Origin: Campylobacteraceae bacterium
GTDB lineage: Bacteria; Campylobacterota; Campylobacteria; Campylobacterales; BB28
Assembly (NCBI GenBank): GCA_016744535.1
Contig: JADGEE010000015.1
Span: forward strand, 1-40,610
Direction: 5' to 3'
DNA: 40,610 bases
Below the pieces are notes generated by a model, which saw only the letters and a list, made by a program, of their open reading frames with translations, was not told where the DNA came from and ran no database searches. Below, piece after piece: positions 20,609 to 29,729 of this stretch (positions within the stretch are counted from its first letter, which is position 1; every line of letters begins with the position of its first letter). Position numbers and translations under genes: made by a program.

Positions 20609-22030
20609 TCAACTAAATAATTTTTTTAAATTTACACCCTCTTCAACTTTAGAACTCTCTAAATTAAATATTTTTTCGCCACTTCCAACTTTTAATTTAT
20701 CACAAATAGATGCTAAAATGCTATCAATTGAAGTTAAGCCATTTATATCTTCGTTTGGGATACTAAATTTTTCAATTTCACTATTTGGAAACATATCCCC
20801 ATAAACTCCACCATTTATACTGTTTCCAATAATTAATATAGAACTTCCTCTTCCGTGGTCTGTTCCATTATCTCCATTTGATGCTAGTTGTCTTCCAAAT
20901 TCGCTAGATATTACAAATATTAAATTATCGCTAATTTTAGGCATATCTTGTTTAATTAGCTGTGTGACTCTATCTAATCCTCTATCAGTTCCGAAAATAT
21001 CATCAATTTTTGTCTCTATTGATTTAATTTGTTGTTTATGACTATCCCAACCACCATATTCTAAACTTGCAACTTGCATATTTAAAACATCATTACAAAT
21101 CAGACTATCATATAAATTTCTAAGTTGTTTTCCAAAATATTTATTATCTAAATGTTTATTAGATTTTCTATCATAAAGTTCTGTTAAATTAGTAGGTTCA
21201 GGAATATTTGATAATTTCTCTTTTATCTTTCTGCCAAACTCTATTAAAAGTTTTTCGTGTTGAATAAATTTATAATATGGTGAATTAGTCTCTATTAAAT
21301 CTCTTTTGGCTTCATAGTAACTACTAAGTGAGCGAGATAAAATTGCTTTATATCTCCACCTATATTTTTTGTCTCCATTATCTATATCAGCTTGTGTGTT
21401 ATACTCATAAAGACCTATATTTCGGCTATCACTTGCAGATATTACAATATCATTATGATGCTCTAATTTATTATTACCATTTGGTGCGTTACAAAAAAGC
21501 CTAACATTTCTTGTAAGTGATACTACATTAGAGTTTAATTCTCTCGCTAACCTTCCACCCCAACCGCTTCGCTCAAAATCGTGAGCTTCTGCTAAATTAT
21601 CGCCACTCTCTAATTTTAAAAGTGAGTGTGAATGATCACGATTTTTTGAATTTATAACATTATTTATAATTGCTACATTTCCACTTTCAAATTGCTCTTT
21701 TAACCATCTAGCATTTGGATTTATTCCAAAGCTTAAACCATCTTTATTAACACTCAAATACTCATCACTTCTAGCTTGAAGAGAAGCTAAATTATTTCCA
21801 TCTAAATTATGTGAAGAGGCTCTATTTTTCCAAAAATTATAACCATAGCTATGCTTATCTTCACTAAATAGTGGGCTAAAAATATGTCTAAAGTCAGCTC
21901 CACCATCTAAAATTAAATTTACAATTATCGGTTTTTGATTGTTTATAACCTCATCTGCATTTAGTTTAAAATTAAATCCCATTAACGCTAGAGTAGCTAG
22001 TGAATATTTTAAAAAACTTCTTCTTTTCAT
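20609..22030 (-). CDS. DUF1501 protein, Tat-exported
   Basis: 473 residues. The N-terminus MKRRSFLKYSLATLALMGF is a twin-arginine signal (RRSFLK), so the protein is exported folded. DUF1501 features follow: GGADFRH near the start, LEYGGWDSHKQQ, SSEFGRQLASNGDNGTDHG and SILIIGNSINGGVYG, resembling the alkaline phosphatase/sulfatase fold. The start at 22030 is preferred over one 13 codons earlier because it follows a GAGGG box, overlaps the DUF1800 stop as TAATG and places the Tat motif at the N-terminus. DUF1501 and DUF1800 genes pair widely in bacteria. Their biochemical role is not established. Confidence 0.9.
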   Translation of the reverse strand: MKRRSFLKYSLATLALMGFNFKLNADEVINNQKPIIVNLILDGGADFRHIFSPLFSEDKHSYGYNFWKNRASSHNLDGNNLASLQARSDEYLSVNKDGLSFGINPNARWLKEQFESGNVAIINNVINSKNRDHSHSLLKLESGDNLAEAHDFERSGWGGRLARELNSNVVSLTRNVRLFCNAPNGNNKLEHHNDIVISASDSRNIGLYEYNTQADIDNGDKKYRWRYKAILSRSLSSYYEAKRDLIETNSPYYKFIQHEKLLIEFGRKIKEKLSNIPEPTNLTELYDRKSNKHLDNKYFGKQLRNLYDSLICNDVLNMQVASLEYGGWDSHKQQIKSIETKIDDIFGTDRGLDRVTQLIKQDMPKISDNLIFVISSEFGRQLASNGDNGTDHGRGSSILIIGNSINGGVYGDMFPNSEIEKFSIPNEDINGLTSIDSILASICDKLKVGSGEKIFNLESSKVEEGVNLKKLFS

Positions 22031-24018
22031 TATTTTCCCTCTTGTAGAAAAATATAAGGAGTAGTACATATAAAAGCTATTGCTTTACCAACTCTCTCAT
22101 TTGCTTCTCTTTTTATCTCTATATCATTTGAATTTAAATCAACTCTTGCAACTCCTGCATCATTTATCTTATCAACTATTAATCTATCATTTTGAAGTTC
22201 ATCTATTTTATAAACTTTTAAAGGATTCTCTTCATCTAAAAATAGAGATAAATCAACACCACTCGCTAAAAGTGTATAGATATGAGCTATCTCTAAAGTT
22301 TGAAGATTTTTACCACTATCAGCGATAAAATAATTCCATAACCACTTAGCTACATCTTTAACAATATAATTTCCATCTACACTTTTTGGGATAATACTAC
22401 TCCAATCTTTTTCCCAAATTACTTTATTATTATCATCAACTTCATAACTTTGAGTATAAAACCAATTTTTATCTATCGCTTTATTATAAGCAAATTGGAA
22501 TACTGTTGGAGAATCTGAAGCCTCTAAGGAACTTTGATGTCCAAAAACATCATGGATAGGGTGAAATGGTTTTGCATCCTCATCATTTAAAATCCAATAA
22601 TGACTATAAATATTTAAGTAGCTATCTTCATTTTTTAGTGTCATTTTATTTAAAATTAACATATTTCTATCAATTGAACTATAATATTTAAATCTATCAT
22701 TTGAGTGGAACATCTCTGAAATTGCATAATTTTGTATAAACTCTAAAAGATTTTTAACTTCCATCTTTTTCCAATTATATTGAAGTTTTTTAATTTTTTT
22801 TTCATTTAAATTATCATCTGCTAAATTTCTAATGATAATAATTGGTAAATTATTTAAGGATTCTTCGTGTTTTATAGCTATTTTTGATAAATTAAACATT
22901 TTCTCTTTGGCATTAGTTCCATTTATCTCTTTTTTTAAAATCTCTAATGAGCTTGGATAATGAAAATTGCTATCATAAGTGGCGATAATATCAGGACCAC
23001 CCTCATCTTCTCTATGCCAGTCAGCAACTATTCCAGTTAATGCTTTTGCTGTATTTCTAATTGAGTAAAATTCGTGATAATCACTATCATATTCCCCAAA
23101 AATTCCAAAGAATAGTTGATGAAATTCTCTTGCAAAATCTTCATTACCTTTAAATGCTCCATCTTCAAAAATATTCCTATTATGTCCATATTGATACGCA
23201 ATAGCACTTGATACAGATGCTTTTGCTAAAATTTCTTCATAGGGTAAGCCTTTAGCTAACTCCTCCATAATACTATCATAGTAATTAATTATAGCTGGTG
23301 CATATACGCCAACATCTCTATTGACAACCATATGATAGTTAGTTTCAAAAAGTCCTATTTTTTCTCTAAATGGATTTAAACCTCTTCTATTTACTGCTGA
23401 AATCCAAGTTACATCAGGAGAACTTCCGTTAGTTTTATCAAAATACTCTTTATGCTCATAATCTGTTAAATTGGTTTTATTCCAAAACTCTCTTAAACTT
23501 TCTAAATTTTTATATTGATTTAGTTTATCACTTTGAGGTGGAGAGAGTTTTATATTAGAGTTATCAAAAGTCAATATCTCTTTAATTGCTAACTTTGGAT
23601 TCATATCTACCCAAATATTAATTTGATTTTCAGTTGCAAATGAGCCATAAGCAAAAAGATGTAAAATTTTTCTAACTGCTAACTCATCCCAATTTTGAAG
23701 TGGAATAAATTCAAGTGTTTGACTGTTTTGTTCTGTTTTAATTGGCTCATTTGTAGAAAACTTACAATCATCTTTTCCTATAACCCAAAAACCTTGCTCT
23801 TTATCTAATGAATTTAAGTTTGAACTTTCATTATTGGGCTTATAGATATACCAATTATCATCTTTAAACGCCCAAAGTGCTTTAAGACAATCTCTATTAA
23901 AAACGGTTATATCATCTATATTTTCAGAAGTTCCCAAAAGTTTCCATTTTTGATTTAATTCAATGTTTTGGGAGTATGAAAATATAGGGAGTATAATTAA
24001 TAATATAAGTTTTTTCAT
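22030..24018 (-). CDS. DUF1800 protein with N-terminal W/G-rich module
   Basis: 662 residues. A Sec-type signal (KKLILLIILPIFSYS) is followed at about 22-75 by a module of the pattern WKLLGTS ... ALWAFKDDNWYIY ... GFWVIGK, also seen in neighbouring exported proteins. The DUF1800 region runs from about 105 (WDELAVRKILHLFAYG) and contains NEDFAREFHQLFFGIFG, the family signature (usually NENYARELLELFTLG), and later ALTGIVADWH. Start ATG with AAGGAATCC upstream. It is coupled to DUF1501 by TAATG. A decayed second copy of its 5' part lies at 27722-27949. Function unknown; extracytoplasmic. Confidence 0.88.
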   Translation of the reverse strand: MKKLILLIILPIFSYSQNIELNQKWKLLGTSENIDDITVFNRDCLKALWAFKDDNWYIYKPNNESSNLNSLDKEQGFWVIGKDDCKFSTNEPIKTEQNSQTLEFIPLQNWDELAVRKILHLFAYGSFATENQINIWVDMNPKLAIKEILTFDNSNIKLSPPQSDKLNQYKNLESLREFWNKTNLTDYEHKEYFDKTNGSSPDVTWISAVNRRGLNPFREKIGLFETNYHMVVNRDVGVYAPAIINYYDSIMEELAKGLPYEEILAKASVSSAIAYQYGHNRNIFEDGAFKGNEDFAREFHQLFFGIFGEYDSDYHEFYSIRNTAKALTGIVADWHREDEGGPDIIATYDSNFHYPSSLEILKKEINGTNAKEKMFNLSKIAIKHEESLNNLPIIIIRNLADDNLNEKKIKKLQYNWKKMEVKNLLEFIQNYAISEMFHSNDRFKYYSSIDRNMLILNKMTLKNEDSYLNIYSHYWILNDEDAKPFHPIHDVFGHQSSLEASDSPTVFQFAYNKAIDKNWFYTQSYEVDDNNKVIWEKDWSSIIPKSVDGNYIVKDVAKWLWNYFIADSGKNLQTLEIAHIYTLLASGVDLSLFLDEENPLKVYKIDELQNDRLIVDKINDAGVARVDLNSNDIEIKREANERVGKAIAFICTTPYIFLQEGK

Positions 24019-24051: not shown

Positions 24052-24354
24052 TTATGAAATTTCACTCAAATATAGTTTTTCTAATTTTTTTTCAATTTCT
24101 AATTCTAATTTAGATTTTTTATTTATACTTTGAGAGTTTAAAAATAAGTATTCAGGTGCAAAATCTGCTTCATTTTCCCATATAATAGTTCCATAATCTA
24201 CTTTAAAATTTTTAAATTTTTCAATATCTTTTAAAGGCTTATAAATTTTACCATTTAAGCTATTTTGTAAATCTATTACTCTTTTTATATTATTAGTGAA
24301 TAGAAGTTTAATTTTAAATTCTTTTAAATATGTGGCTTTTATTACTTTTATCAC
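24052..24354 (-). CDS. DUF2442 family protein
   Basis: 100 residues matching the DUF2442 pattern: VIKATYLKEFKIKLLFTN near the start, then LKDIEKFKNFKVDYGTIIWEN and the closing ADFAPEYLF. The start is GTG (minus strand) with GGAGTGAATT before it, ten bases after the DUF4160 stop. DUF4160 and DUF2442 genes often form two-gene units; a toxin-antitoxin-like role has been suspected but I know of no firm proof. It ends 33 bases before the DUF1800 gene. Confidence 0.82.
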   Translation of the reverse strand: MIKVIKATYLKEFKIKLLFTNNIKRVIDLQNSLNGKIYKPLKDIEKFKNFKVDYGTIIWENEADFAPEYLFLNSQSINKKSKLELEIEKKLEKLYLSEIS

Positions 24355-24363
24355 AATTCACTC

Positions 24364-24621
24364 CTACTTTAAAGGTTCAATTTTTTCTAAAGCTTTTTTA
24401 TCTCTTGCTAAATACCAATCTCTTAATAACTCTTCTTTGTGTATTTCTGCCCATTCTAAAACAAGATTTAAAGCCCTCTTTGGCATTTTACCATCAACTA
24501 CCCAACCATCAATACATATTAACACACTATATTCTCCATACTCTGCGTGAAAATGGGGAGGATTATGGTCGTTATAATTTATAAAAACTCTGATATCATA
24601 AAAATTACTAATTTCAGGCAT
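24364..24621 (-). CDS. DUF4160 family protein
   Basis: 85 residues matching DUF4160: MPEISNFYDIRVFINYNDH, then PPHFHAEYGEY, the hallmark of the family, and LVLEWAEIHKEELLRDWYLA. AAAAAGGAATAAAA precedes the ATG. It is the first gene of a DUF4160-DUF2442 pair, which is common on mobile or accessory DNA. No enzymatic role is established; the HFH segment could bind metal (inference). Confidence 0.85.
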   Translation of the reverse strand: MPEISNFYDIRVFINYNDHNPPHFHAEYGEYSVLICIDGWVVDGKMPKRALNLVLEWAEIHKEELLRDWYLARDKKALEKIEPLK

Positions 24622-24714: not shown

Positions 24715-26079
24715 TTAATTTTTATTATTTCTTACGCATTTAAATCCACTATATCTATTTATTTTACTATCTTTACTAGTAGATCCTCTTACAAAATTAA
24801 TAAGTAATCCTTTAGAAGAATCATTTATATATTCATCTGAACTCCATAAATAACTACGAGGATTTTCAAATGCTAAATCTAAAAAAGAGTTACCATTTTT
24901 TAAATCTTCATTTTCATTATACCATTCGTTATAATTATTATCATTATTTTCATAATAAGTTGTCATAATTGAGTGTAATTCGTTTATATTTGGAAGTTTC
25001 CAGTCACTATATTCTGCAAATATTAAGTTGCTACAAGAATCTATCGCTTTTTGCCAATTATATCCTTCATTTGCTAAATTATCTTGCCACATTAAATTGT
25101 TTTTTGTGTCGATTACTATTTCTAAAGAGTCATCTCGGTAGAAGTTGCCTTTGGTTAAATTAGTTGATGATTCTTGTGACTTATCCTCACAATATCCACT
25201 TCCATCACTATAATATTTTAAATCTTGATTTGAACTACAAGATGGACAATTAGGAGAGTATTCTTTACAAGTTTTATTATTTAATGTGTTAGCTATTTGA
25301 ATAACTTCATTTAAATCATTTTCAGCCTCAAAATTTACTCTTGGTGACATCAAAGTTCCAAAATTTTGACTACCATTTTCTTTTAGAATATCTCCTATTG
25401 TATAAGAATCAAGAGCTACTAGACCTAAATCTGTTCCAAGCTCTTTTGCTAATCCTACTATACATTTACCTTTATTTGGTGGAACACAATTTGTTACACT
25501 TCCTAACTTTCCAATTACATATGTACTTTGTTTAATTTCTTCTTTTTCCTCTGCTTTAAGTAATGGTTCAGCTAAATCTGCAACATCTGATACAACAGAA
25601 GCACCTAAACTAATACAAGAAAAAGTAGCAATTCCACCTGTACCTGTACAAGCAATATCAATTGCACCTCCAATTAACTCTCCTACAGTAATTTCTTCAA
25701 ACTTTCCAATAACAGCTTTTACAAATATTTTTACAAGACTTCTTTTAAATGCTCTCATTGTGGATTTATTAACATTTCCACTATTAATAACAACTCCATC
25801 ATTAACTTGTTTAAATGAGTAACTACTTCCATCAAATTCAAAATATATGTTATTTCCATCAGAATCTGTCATAGCCTTGGGGTTACCATTATCATCTAAA
25901 GTAAAAGAACTCCATTTTTCATTATTTGCAATAGTAATATTTTTAATTCCAGATGGTTGATTATTGCTATACTCAAAACCAACAGCTGTTATAAAATTTT
26001 TATTAGGGTTATTAAGATTTACTACTCTTGCAGTAACATCAAAAGGATAATCTTTATCAGTAATAAAAAGCAGTTGTTC
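24715..26079 (-). pseudogene. 5'-truncated surface protein with C-terminal DUF1566 domain
   Basis: Open frame of 454 codons that begins directly after, and in the same frame as, the TAA of the upstream DUF1566 gene. It reads EQLLFITDKDYPFDVTARV... and shows no ATG, GTG or TTG for 69 codons. The first ATG (25872) has a poor site (AAGG two bases away) and falls inside a beta-rich stretch, so I doubt it is a true start. The middle has a glycine/alanine-rich, Cys-containing segment (GELIGGAIDIACTGTGGIA). The last ~140 residues are a DUF1566 domain (LMWQDNLANEGYNWQKAI, SDWKLPNINELHSIM, YLWSSDEY, GFKCVRN). Most likely the 3' part of a larger surface gene joined here by recombination, or a readthrough product. 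Confidence 0.55.
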
Positions 26080-27102
26080 TTAATAGCTATAAGTTGGCTC
26101 TTTAAATGGTACACTTCCACCCACTCTAACCCAAACGCCTCTGCCTTCTTCTATTATAATATCACCATCATTAAAAGAGGTGTACCAAACATCATCTATA
26201 TAAGTATAAGCATAACTTGCATAATCATATCTGCTTACTGTATCAGCTAAAGTTTCAAGCCTAGTTCCTGAAATTAAAAACCATCCATTATAATCTAAAT
26301 ATAATCCACCTGTACCATCTCCATCATTTGAAAATTTCAAACCATCAATATCATACGACGATTTCGCCCAAAAACCTTGACCTGATAATACATTACCATT
26401 TTGTGTCCAAGCATTATAATCAAAAGTCCAAGTAACATCAATATTATTTTTATATATAGTTTGAGAAGTATTTGAAGCATTACCAACTAAATTCCAACCC
26501 TTTTTAAGTGGTGGGGTAGTAGAAATATAAACTTCTATAAAATCATCTTTTAAACTTGAAAGAGAGGAAAAAGTTGAATTATCAAAACTGCCCTTACTAA
26601 CTCTTGCACATCTAACATATTTATTATCACTTTTATTAGATAAATAACTATTACCATTACGAAATCCAATATCCCAAGCTTTATCATTACTGTAACTTTC
26701 ACTTGTCCAAAAATGAGAGAAAGAACCAATATTTTCAAACTCTTCGACTATAAAGAAATCATTATTTTTCATATATCCATTTGTAATATTCCAATCTTCC
26801 CAATTATCATCATATTCTCCATAATAAGCCGTCATAATTGAGCTTAATACATTTCTATTTGGTAGATACCAATCACTAACTCCAGCCAAATTTAAATTAT
26901 CACAATAATCTATTGCTTCTTGAAAAATATAACCTTTACTATTTGCAGTATTGATGGTGTCTTCATACATTAAGTCTGAAGATGTATCTAAAACTACATC
27001 TAAATTATCATTTCTGATAAACTCTGCACTTAAATAACTAATAGCTATAAGCAAAAAAATAAAAACTCTTTTAAATATTTTTTTCTTCCTTATTATTAAC
27101 AA
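26080..27102 (-). CDS. Exported DUF1566 protein with two W/G-rich modules
   Basis: 340 residues. A hydrophobic N-terminus (FKRVFIFLLIAISYLSAEF) looks like a Sec signal. Residues 30-170 form a DUF1566 domain (VVLDTSSDLMYEDTINTANS, SDWYLPNRNVLSSIMTAYYG, FWTSESY, KYVRCARVS). Two W/G-rich modules follow, about 201-260 (GWNLVGNAS ... WTFDYNAW ... GQGFWAKS) and about 275-335 (GWFLISG ... YAYTYIDDVWY ... GRGVWVRV). The start is uncertain: TTG at 27102 has no good ribosome site and lies inside the preceding small gene, while AAGGAAG is followed only by ATA. The stop TAA is followed in frame by the truncated gene downstream. Confidence 0.7.
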   Translation of the reverse strand: MLIIRKKKIFKRVFIFLLIAISYLSAEFIRNDNLDVVLDTSSDLMYEDTINTANSKGYIFQEAIDYCDNLNLAGVSDWYLPNRNVLSSIMTAYYGEYDDNWEDWNITNGYMKNNDFFIVEEFENIGSFSHFWTSESYSNDKAWDIGFRNGNSYLSNKSDNKYVRCARVSKGSFDNSTFSSLSSLKDDFIEVYISTTPPLKKGWNLVGNASNTSQTIYKNNIDVTWTFDYNAWTQNGNVLSGQGFWAKSSYDIDGLKFSNDGDGTGGLYLDYNGWFLISGTRLETLADTVSRYDYASYAYTYIDDVWYTSFNDGDIIIEEGRGVWVRVGGSVPFKEPTYSY

Positions 27103-27160
27103 TAAAAAAAATAACCCAAGCTATTGAACCAGCAATAACTGCCATAATTGCAACTTCCAT
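27071..27160 (-). CDS. Tiny single-helix membrane protein (29 residues)
   Basis: Starts MEVAIMAVIAGSIAWVIFFI and ends NNKEEKNI: one membrane helix and a charged tail. GGAG stands six bases before the ATG, and the start lies two bases after the stop of the 63-residue gene. Its end overlaps the likely start of the DUF1566 gene. It matches in size and layout the 30-residue gene before mfd. Confidence 0.6.
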   Translation of the reverse strand: MEVAIMAVIAGSIAWVIFFIVNNKEEKNI

Positions 27161-27162
27161 TT

Positions 27163-27354
27163 TTACTCCTTATTTCCTCTGTTTACAAGAATATATCCCA
27201 CATAATATAGTGACATTACTCCATAGATTAAACTTAAAACAATTAAAACATTAAAATTACTCTTTTGAATATATGTATTTAATAAAAAAAGCACAAATAA
27301 AAGATTAGCTAATGTTATAAACCCTTTCCCAACTTCTTTTAATCCCTCATTCAC
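27163..27354 (-). CDS. Small two-helix membrane protein (63 residues)
   Basis: Starts NEGLKEVGKGFITLANLLF after a GTG start with AAGGATTATTTT upstream. It has two hydrophobic helices (about 13-30 and 36-56) separated by a short polar turn, and a charged tail VNRGNKE. The layout and the GLKE near the N-terminus recall the frameshifted gene at 16875. It is followed after two bases by a 29-residue single-helix gene. Function unknown. Confidence 0.7.
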   Translation of the reverse strand: MNEGLKEVGKGFITLANLLFVLFLLNTYIQKSNFNVLIVLSLIYGVMSLYYVGYILVNRGNKE

Positions 27355-27461: not shown

Positions 27462-27659
27462 TTTTCATCAAAAAATGTAAAAAAAATTAGAAAGTCAAAA
27501 AATATATCTCAACTTGAATTAGCTTTATTTATCGGACATAAATCCATTGGACTTATTTCTAGTGTTGAAATTTCTATAAATAATAAACACTTTAATTTAG
27601 AACACTTATATAAAATAGCAAAAGTTTTAAAAGTTGATATTTATGAGTTTTTTAAGTAA
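27462..27659 (+). pseudogene. XRE-family HTH regulator remnant
   Basis: The frame reads VKKIRKSKNISQLELALFIG then SISL-like helix positions (SSVEISINNKH), then FNLEHLYKIAKVLKVDIYEF, a recognisable Cro/CI helix-turn-helix domain ending at TAA. There is no ATG, GTG or TTG start after the previous in-frame stop (27459-27461). An ATG at 27476 is immediately followed by TAA in another frame, next to a run of eight A, so a slippage there probably destroyed the start. It is the only plus-strand gene trace in this accessory block. Confidence 0.6.
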
Positions 27660-27721
27660 TATTTATATTTTCTAACTCTTTTATAATACTATTTTGAAGA
27701 TTTAATAAATATTTACCTATT

Positions 27722-27949
27722 GATTTAATTTATCACTTTGAGGTGGATAGAGTTTTATATTAGAGTTATCAAAAGTCAATCCAAATTTTAATTTGATTTT
27801 CAGTTGCGAATGAACCATAAATAAATGTAAAATTTTTCTAATTACTAGCTCATCCCAACTTACAAGTGAAGTTAAATTAGAACTTTCATTATTTGGTTTA
27901 TAGATATACCAATTATTATCTTTAAAACTCCAAAGTGCTTTTAGACAAT
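27722..27949 (-). pseudogene. Decayed copy of the DUF1800 gene 5' part
   Basis: This stretch matches the intact DUF1800 gene at about 23517-23915, same strand. Near-identical segments include TTATCACTTTGAGGTGGA (one mismatch region), TATTAGAGTTATCAAAAGTC and TATAGATATACCAATTAT. Relative to the intact gene it lacks about 35 bases after the first segment and over 100 bases in the middle, and has a 4-base deletion in the HLFAYGS region, so it cannot be translated as a whole. It still spells part of the W-rich module (CLKALWSFKDNNWYIYKPN). No gene for the rest of the protein remains nearby. Confidence 0.85.
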
Positions 27950-28073
27950 TTCCTGTTATATATTTTTTGATACCAGCTCACTATTATTCTTAAATTTTAA
28001 AAACTCCAAAACAACTCCTCATTAAAATTCTATATTATAGTAAATTTTTCTAAACAGTAGGTTAGCTTTAATT

Positions 28074-28127: not shown

Positions 28128-29729
28128 ATGAAGAAAAAAGTTTTAATTATTGGTGGCGGTCCAAATAGAATTGGTCAAGGAATTGAATTTGATTACTGTT
28201 GTGTTCACGCCTCTTTTGCCCTAAAGGATATGGGAGTTGAAACTATAATGTATAACTGTAATCCTGAAACTGTTTCAACTGATTATGATACAAGCGATAT
28301 TTTATATTTTGAGCCAATTACACTAGAGCACGTTAGAAGTGTAATTGAGAGAGAGAATCCTGATGGGGTAATTGTTCACTTTGGTGGTCAAACTCCACTA
28401 AAACTTGCTAAGCCTTTAACTGCTATTGGTGCAAAAATAATTGGAACTACTGCAAAAGTTATCGATTTAGCAGAAGATAGAAAAAAATTCTCTAAATTTG
28501 TAATTGAAAATGATTTACTTCAACCTGAAAATGGAACTGCAATCTCAAAAGAGGAAGCGTTAGATATAGCAAAAGAGATAGGCTATCCAGTGCTTGTTAG
28601 ACCTAGTTATGTATTAGGTGGTCGAGCTATGAGAATTGTTTATAATGAAGATGAGCTTAAAATTTATATGGATGAGGCTGTAAGTGTAAGTAATGATAGC
28701 CCTGTTTTAGTTGATAAATTTTTAGATAGAGCTATTGAGCTTGATGTGGATGCTATTTGTGATGGTAAAGAGGTTTATATAGGTGGAGTTATGCAACATA
28801 TCGAAGAGGCTGGAATACACTCTGGCGATAGTGCTTGTTCACTTCCTGCTATCTCTATTTCAGATGAAACTATCAAAAAAATAGAAGAACAGACTAAAAA
28901 AATAGCTTTAGGTTTAGGAGTAAAAGGTCTTTTAAATATTCAATATGCAATTCATCAAAATAGTGATATTTACTTAATTGAGGTAAATCCTCGTGCAAGT
29001 CGTACTGTTCCATTTGTATCAAAAGCTACTGGAATTCCTTTAGCAAAAGTGGCTACTAAAGTTATGTGGGAAGGGAATTTAAGAGATGCCCTTAAATTTT
29101 ATGATGACTATAATATTATATACGAAGATAATGGAGTTTTAAAGCCTAAATTAAAATCTCACGTATCAGTAAAAGAGGCAGTTTTTCCATTTAATAAATT
29201 AACTGGGGCTGATTTAATTTTATCTCCAGAGATGAAATCAACTGGTGAAGTTATGGGAATTAGTGATAATTTCGGAATTAGTTTTGCCAAAAGTCAATTT
29301 GCTTGTGGTAATGTATTACCTACTGAAGGTCAAGTATTTTTATCACTTACAAACTTAGATAAACCTTTTGCCAAAGAGATAGCTAAGAGTTTTATAGATT
29401 TAGGTTTTGAAGTTTGTGCAACGGGAGGAACTTATAAAGTTTTAGAAGAGGCAAACATTGAATCGAAAAAAGTGCTTAAAATTAGTGAAGGGCGACCAAA
29501 TGTTGAAGATATGCTAAGAAATGCAGAGATAACATTGGCCATTAATACAAGTGATAATAAATCAAGTAAAGATGATGCTAAAAAAATTAGAAATACAGTA
29601 TTAAAAAGTAATGTTCCTTACTTTACGACATTAGCTGGTGCATTTGCCACAATTGAAGCGATTAAAGTTTTAAAAAGTGGACAAGATTGTTTAACACCTA
29701 AAGCACTACAAGATTACTTAAAAGATTAA
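28128..29729 (+). CDS. carB: Carbamoyl-phosphate synthase large chain, C-terminal half (split CarB)
   Basis: 533 residues equal to the second half of the usual ~1070-1090-residue CarB. It begins at the domain border with VLIIGGGPNRIGQGIEFDYC. It contains the second preATP-grasp and ATP-grasp domains (SYVLGGRAMRIVYNEDEL, the ISDE/SACSLPAISIS region, LIEVNPRASRTVPFVSKATG), which phosphorylate carbamate, and then the C-terminal MGS-like allosteric domain (about 390-533, LGFEVCATGGTYKVL). AAAAGGATAAAAAAGA precedes the ATG and a promoter box lies upstream, so it looks like a true gene and not a fragment. The N-terminal half (carboxyphosphate synthesis) and CarA are not in this window. Split CarB is known in Aquifex and some archaea. 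Confidence 0.93.
   Translation: MKKKVLIIGGGPNRIGQGIEFDYCCVHASFALKDMGVETIMYNCNPETVSTDYDTSDILYFEPITLEHVRSVIERENPDGVIVHFGGQTPLKLAKPLTAIGAKIIGTTAKVIDLAEDRKKFSKFVIENDLLQPENGTAISKEEALDIAKEIGYPVLVRPSYVLGGRAMRIVYNEDELKIYMDEAVSVSNDSPVLVDKFLDRAIELDVDAICDGKEVYIGGVMQHIEEAGIHSGDSACSLPAISISDETIKKIEEQTKKIALGLGVKGLLNIQYAIHQNSDIYLIEVNPRASRTVPFVSKATGIPLAKVATKVMWEGNLRDALKFYDDYNIIYEDNGVLKPKLKSHVSVKEAVFPFNKLTGADLILSPEMKSTGEVMGISDNFGISFAKSQFACGNVLPTEGQVFLSLTNLDKPFAKEIAKSFIDLGFEVCATGGTYKVLEEANIESKKVLKISEGRPNVEDMLRNAEITLAINTSDNKSSKDDAKKIRNTVLKSNVPYFTTLAGAFATIEAIKVLKSGQDCLTPKALQDYLKD

Follow-up and report, generated by a model that had tools for sequence, protein, structure and literature searches.

A long Lcl_C surface-protein frame divided by an in-frame TAA in a Campylobacteraceae bacterium, probably a broken gene

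Does the TAA codon at 26080-26082 on the minus strand of contig JADGEE010000015.1 end one surface-protein gene in front of another, or does it cut through a single gene? ORF A (27102-26080, minus strand, TTG start, 340 codons) terminates at this codon (26082-26080). It encodes a signal peptide, an Lcl_C (DUF1566) domain, a two-repeat GWNL module and a 14-residue tail. Past the TAA the frame of A remains open for another 454 codons, here called ORF B (26079-24715, minus strand), which encode a beta-rich orphan region, a hydrophobic Gly-rich region, a Cys-rich stretch and a C-terminal Lcl_C domain. The original prediction had pointed to this open run without stating the strand, and the run is as described. 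The window, which is the whole 40,610-nucleotide stretch of DNA that was analyzed, has 28 ORFs, and A is the only one followed by such a long open run in the same frame. The next longest run, of 242 codons, is an ordinary neighboring gene that starts 6 codons past the stop. A neighbor in the same frame is thus ordinary, but one without a beginning is not.

Coding signal and start sites around the stop codon

The first 69 codons of B (25873-26079, minus strand) contain no ATG, GTG or TTG and no ribosome binding site, and yet carry a full coding signal. Their codon usage scored 0.42 bits/codon compared to 0.43 ± 0.15 for the genes of the window, and no segment in a non-coding frame reached 0.42 bits/codon. 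The probability of finding 69 consecutive open codons at the local base composition is ca. 0.002. By coding signal and open-run probability, the joining of A and B exceeds chance. The earlier claims that B codes from its first codon and has no good start for 69 codons were both confirmed, and a clear start with a ribosome binding site within 25873-26079, which would have contradicted them, was looked for and is absent.

The in-frame ATG codons of B lie at 25872 (codon 70, the earliest) and 25758 (codon 108, the next). Their Shine-Dalgarno matches are 3/6 each, whereas 21 of the 22 gene starts of the window that served as controls have a match of at least 4/6. CTG and ATT codons occur close behind the TAA. 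A start and ribosome binding site of its own, as expected for the downstream member of two independent tandem genes, were not found for B, and no signal peptide was seen in it. With neither a means of initiation at its natural 5' end nor an export signal, B is most likely not translated.

The start region of A (27076-27102, minus strand) is abnormal as well. The DNA encoding its signal peptide matches that of a paralogue on G000:C12, and the sequence AAAAGAGTTTTTAT is common to both. An AAGGAA site is present in A at the usual distance, but the ATG of the paralogue aligns with TTT (27075). The only standard start is the TTG at 27102, which lies upstream of the AAGGAA site and has a Shine-Dalgarno match of its own of 2/6, that is, no ribosome binding site. 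Translation of A could proceed from this TTG by coupling to a small membrane-protein ORF (27160-27071) or from a rare ATA codon. As the second abnormal signal in the gene of A, the start points to decay. The small ORF belongs to a pair (63 and 29 aa; 27071-27354, minus strand) directly upstream of A. Similar pairs of about 63-70 and 29-36 aa occur in several copies in the same genome and in other families (L199, L202, L206 and L208), and the pair gave no Pfam match.

Domains, module placement and relatives

The prediction of DUF1566 at both ends is upheld by the Pfam search. Lcl_C (PF07603) was matched with 66 and 58.9 bits at the two ends, well above the cut-off of 34.9, and both matches cover profile positions 2-117 of 117. 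The domains span residues 36-167 of A (26599-27027, minus strand) and 321-450 of B (24718-25152, minus strand). They share an insert of ca. 19 residues that is absent from five other copies aligned from the same genome. Since Lcl_C domains of another family have a similar insert, those of A and B belong to one subtype, with their sisterhood unproven. A tree of 64 Lcl_C domains likewise placed A and B in a group with two domains of another family that also bear an insert (support 93/85) and did not show them as sisters. The two domains are 42-45% identical in protein sequence and 71% identical in DNA over 206 nt. The TAA junction lies ca. 0.5 kb from the first and ca. 1 kb from the second.

Following its Lcl_C domain, A has a two-repeat module (GWNL...GRGVWVR; 26125-26514, minus strand) with the consensus GWNL...GFW.K...GW.L...G.GFWVK, for which Pfam gave no match in the copy of A. 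GWNL copies were located in both genomes of the genus sample (G000 and G001), and the frame of each was followed to its next stop codon, giving 42 copies. In 34 of these the stop follows 0-5 residues past the module, with at most 45 open codons thereafter where the next stop was readable. Another seven copies are followed by 136 to more than 680 further residues, and in five of the seven the module is near the N-terminus; internal and N-terminal placements are found on contigs C57, C86 and C47. A is the only copy with an intermediate tail, of 14 residues (26083-26124, minus strand), and also the only one in which the stop is followed by a long open frame. Because this tail fits neither class of copies, it suggests a native end of the module other than the present stop, and a chain that formerly extended into B. 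The argument concerns one outlier, and hence supports former continuity without proving it. The prevailing C-terminal placement, with the stop 0-5 residues away, can usefully serve as a rule for annotation in the genus, and the module possibly has a sorting or anchoring role.

For B, the orphan beta-rich stretch comes first and gives an RHS/YD-like hint (RHS repeat, E 0.15) that lies below the cut-off. The Gly-rich hydrophobic region follows, then the Cys-rich stretch, which resembles repeats in G000:C60 and G293, and finally Lcl_C. Searches of the genus (two genomes), family, order, phylum and class samples and of GTDB contigs, IMG/VR, plasmids and phages matched B only in its Lcl_C domain and Cys-rich stretch. 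For the first ca. 260 residues no relatives were found in the order, phylum and class samples or in these four collections. None of the relatives searched has an uninterrupted A and B frame or B by itself, and the same genome has no full-length gene from which B could derive. Weak matches to B in the phylum sample (E 0.001-0.3) were rejected as chance; those that were read fall in unrelated proteins, including a phosphoglycerate mutase-like protein and one with DENGN repeats. No solved structure matched B in sequence, and an AlphaFold2 model of its residues 1-160, computed with no alignment, had a pLDDT of 35, too poor for use.

Weighing the origin of the divided frame

We consider it somewhat probable that A and B are the halves of one former secreted surface-protein gene of ca. 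795 codons that was cut by a nonsense codon, in other words an ordinary broken gene. The stop lies in frame with a coding signal on both sides, and what follows it has no start. We infer a formerly uninterrupted frame and a gene that is no longer active. The former product would have had ca. 795 residues, comprising signal peptide, Lcl_C domain, GWNL module, linker, beta-rich, Gly-rich and Cys-rich regions and a second Lcl_C domain; it would probably have been adhesive. With the nonsense codon past the GWNL module the product would now end there. A, if translated at all, would give a shortened Lcl_C-GWNL protein, and B would be silent, having neither a natural start nor an export signal. Besides the stop and the abnormal start of A, no lesion is seen in the frame, and the same would be expected if both parts were still in use. 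If the pseudogene is real, so few lesions mean that the breakage was most probably fairly recent.

The surroundings bear signs of gene loss. The 5' end of the DUF1800 gene recurs ca. 0.6 kb upstream of A as a decayed and interrupted copy (27711-27952, minus strand; 74-93% identity), and an apparently startless fragment of an XRE-type regulator (27480-27660, plus strand) is 69% identical to G000:C61:7740-8024, which precedes the N-terminal half of carB. Together they mark the locus as a site of duplication and loss. The DUF1800 gene itself (22030-24018, minus strand) has a single GWNL-like repeat at the N-terminus of its product and adjoins a DUF1501 gene (20609-22069). Downstream of B lies a DUF2442 and DUF4160 pair (24052-24354 and 24364-24621, minus strand), a type of pairing that is frequent in toxin-antitoxin-like loci. 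CarB, named by motifs as the large subunit of carbamoyl-phosphate synthase, is encoded in both genus genomes by two ORFs on separate contigs, and no full-length copy was found in either. The ORFs are at 28128-29729 of the window (plus strand; the C-terminal half, 533 aa), G000:C61:8296-9951, G001:C17:8874-10469 and on G001:C109. A scan of promoters and terminators gave counts no higher than shuffled sequences, and no Rfam RNA elements were detected.

The chief rival explanation is that A is complete and ends naturally at the TAA, and that B comes from a different secreted-protein gene, of which the 3' part, deprived of its start and signal peptide, was placed behind A by deletion or recombination. 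We regard this as possible though rather unlikely. It needs no lost continuity, and since the module forms the C-terminus in most of its copies, a stop near the module of A is not odd by itself. The region has also been rearranged, as shown by the truncated DUF1800 copy and by the genus mate (L195), in which the position upstream of the carB half is taken instead by another Lcl_C gene together with an ORF resembling a methyltransferase. However, such a fusion leaves the 14-residue tail of A unexplained when every other C-terminal copy has 0-5 residues, and the junction must fall exactly at the stop while leaving the foreign frame open, where it would be in frame by chance in one of three cases. 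The lack of a source gene for B in the same genome also counts against it. In the specific form of the original prediction, recombination between DUF1566 copies, fusion does not fit, since the junction is far from both of these rather dissimilar copies and exchange between them cannot place it at the TAA. B might alternatively be an independent gene, translated by reinitiation from one of its internal ATG codons (25872 or 25758) or from a non-standard codon such as the CTG or ATT just past the TAA. Such starts do exist, but they have no ribosome binding site, the product would have no signal peptide despite its Cys-rich stretch and Lcl_C domain, and the coding signal begins 69 codons ahead of the first ATG; we consider this improbable.

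It is decidedly improbable that the gene is whole and the TAA an error of sequencing or assembly, or a cell-to-cell variant in the sampled population. The assembly is a draft of 174 contigs, but assembly seldom introduces a single substitution into a unique, non-repetitive stretch, and the start of A is abnormal independently of the stop. Readthrough of the TAA, either regulated or leaky, would yield a short and a long protein and would account for the 454 intact downstream codons with normal codon usage. In E. coli reporters TAA is the least leaky stop, with a mean readthrough of about 0.01-0.05% of wild type (PMC11126739). The RNA on either side of the TAA folds no better than shuffled sequences (z 0.23 and 0.30), so no stimulatory structure was found, and with TAA as the stop neither was the leaky context of programmed readthrough. 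TAA is also the usual stop of most genes in the window, which makes stop reassignment implausible. For these reasons we judge readthrough very unlikely. That bypass of the TAA is frequent enough to yield two lengths from one frame, a long surface adhesin with two heads and a short one with a single head, appears even more doubtful. The absence of an ATG where the paralogues start and the decayed gene copies around A make a pseudogene likelier than readthrough. The predicted ca. 795-residue product interrupted by TAA is therefore better supported as a broken gene, while its readthrough version is not upheld.

If the gene is indeed broken, the finding has little import outside annotation, where pipelines would predict two genes and assign an incorrect internal start to the second. 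The locus would then be one example of gene decay within the multi-copy Lcl_C and GWNL-module surface proteins of the genus.

Comparison with known systems

The Lcl_C (DUF1566) domain is borne by the collagen-like adhesin Lcl of Legionella (PMC11162425), and its presence at both ends of the A and B frame is the point of likeness. Lcl-type adhesins are trimeric and glycosaminoglycan-binding, and have a collagen-like stalk. No Gly-X-Y repeats were found in translated A and B, where Lcl_C is joined instead to the GWNL module and the orphan beta-rich region and has the ca. 19-residue insert in both copies.

DUF1566 proteins are often the targets of diversity-generating retroelements (PMC4159848), with which A and B have the domain family in common. 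A role as such a target was rejected, as the window has no TR/VR pair and no reverse transcriptase match. The sole reverse transcriptase match of the genome is interrupted and looks like another type; the 29 nt it has in common with the A and B region belong to a stretch coding for coiled coil. A reverse-transcriptase-like gene at 162-2025 of L210 (G000:C60), apparently disrupted by both a frameshift and a stop codon in frame, is another interrupted gene of this genome.

The tandem Lcl_C proteins of the genus (G000:C61, G001:C17 and C12) are also secreted and have two Lcl_C domains, which are adjacent there but ca. 480 residues apart in A and B. The locus differs from other nonsense-interrupted bacterial pseudogenes in having no intact orthologue in the samples searched and few lesions, but it resembles them in its single in-frame stop, the loss of the canonical start and the gene debris nearby.
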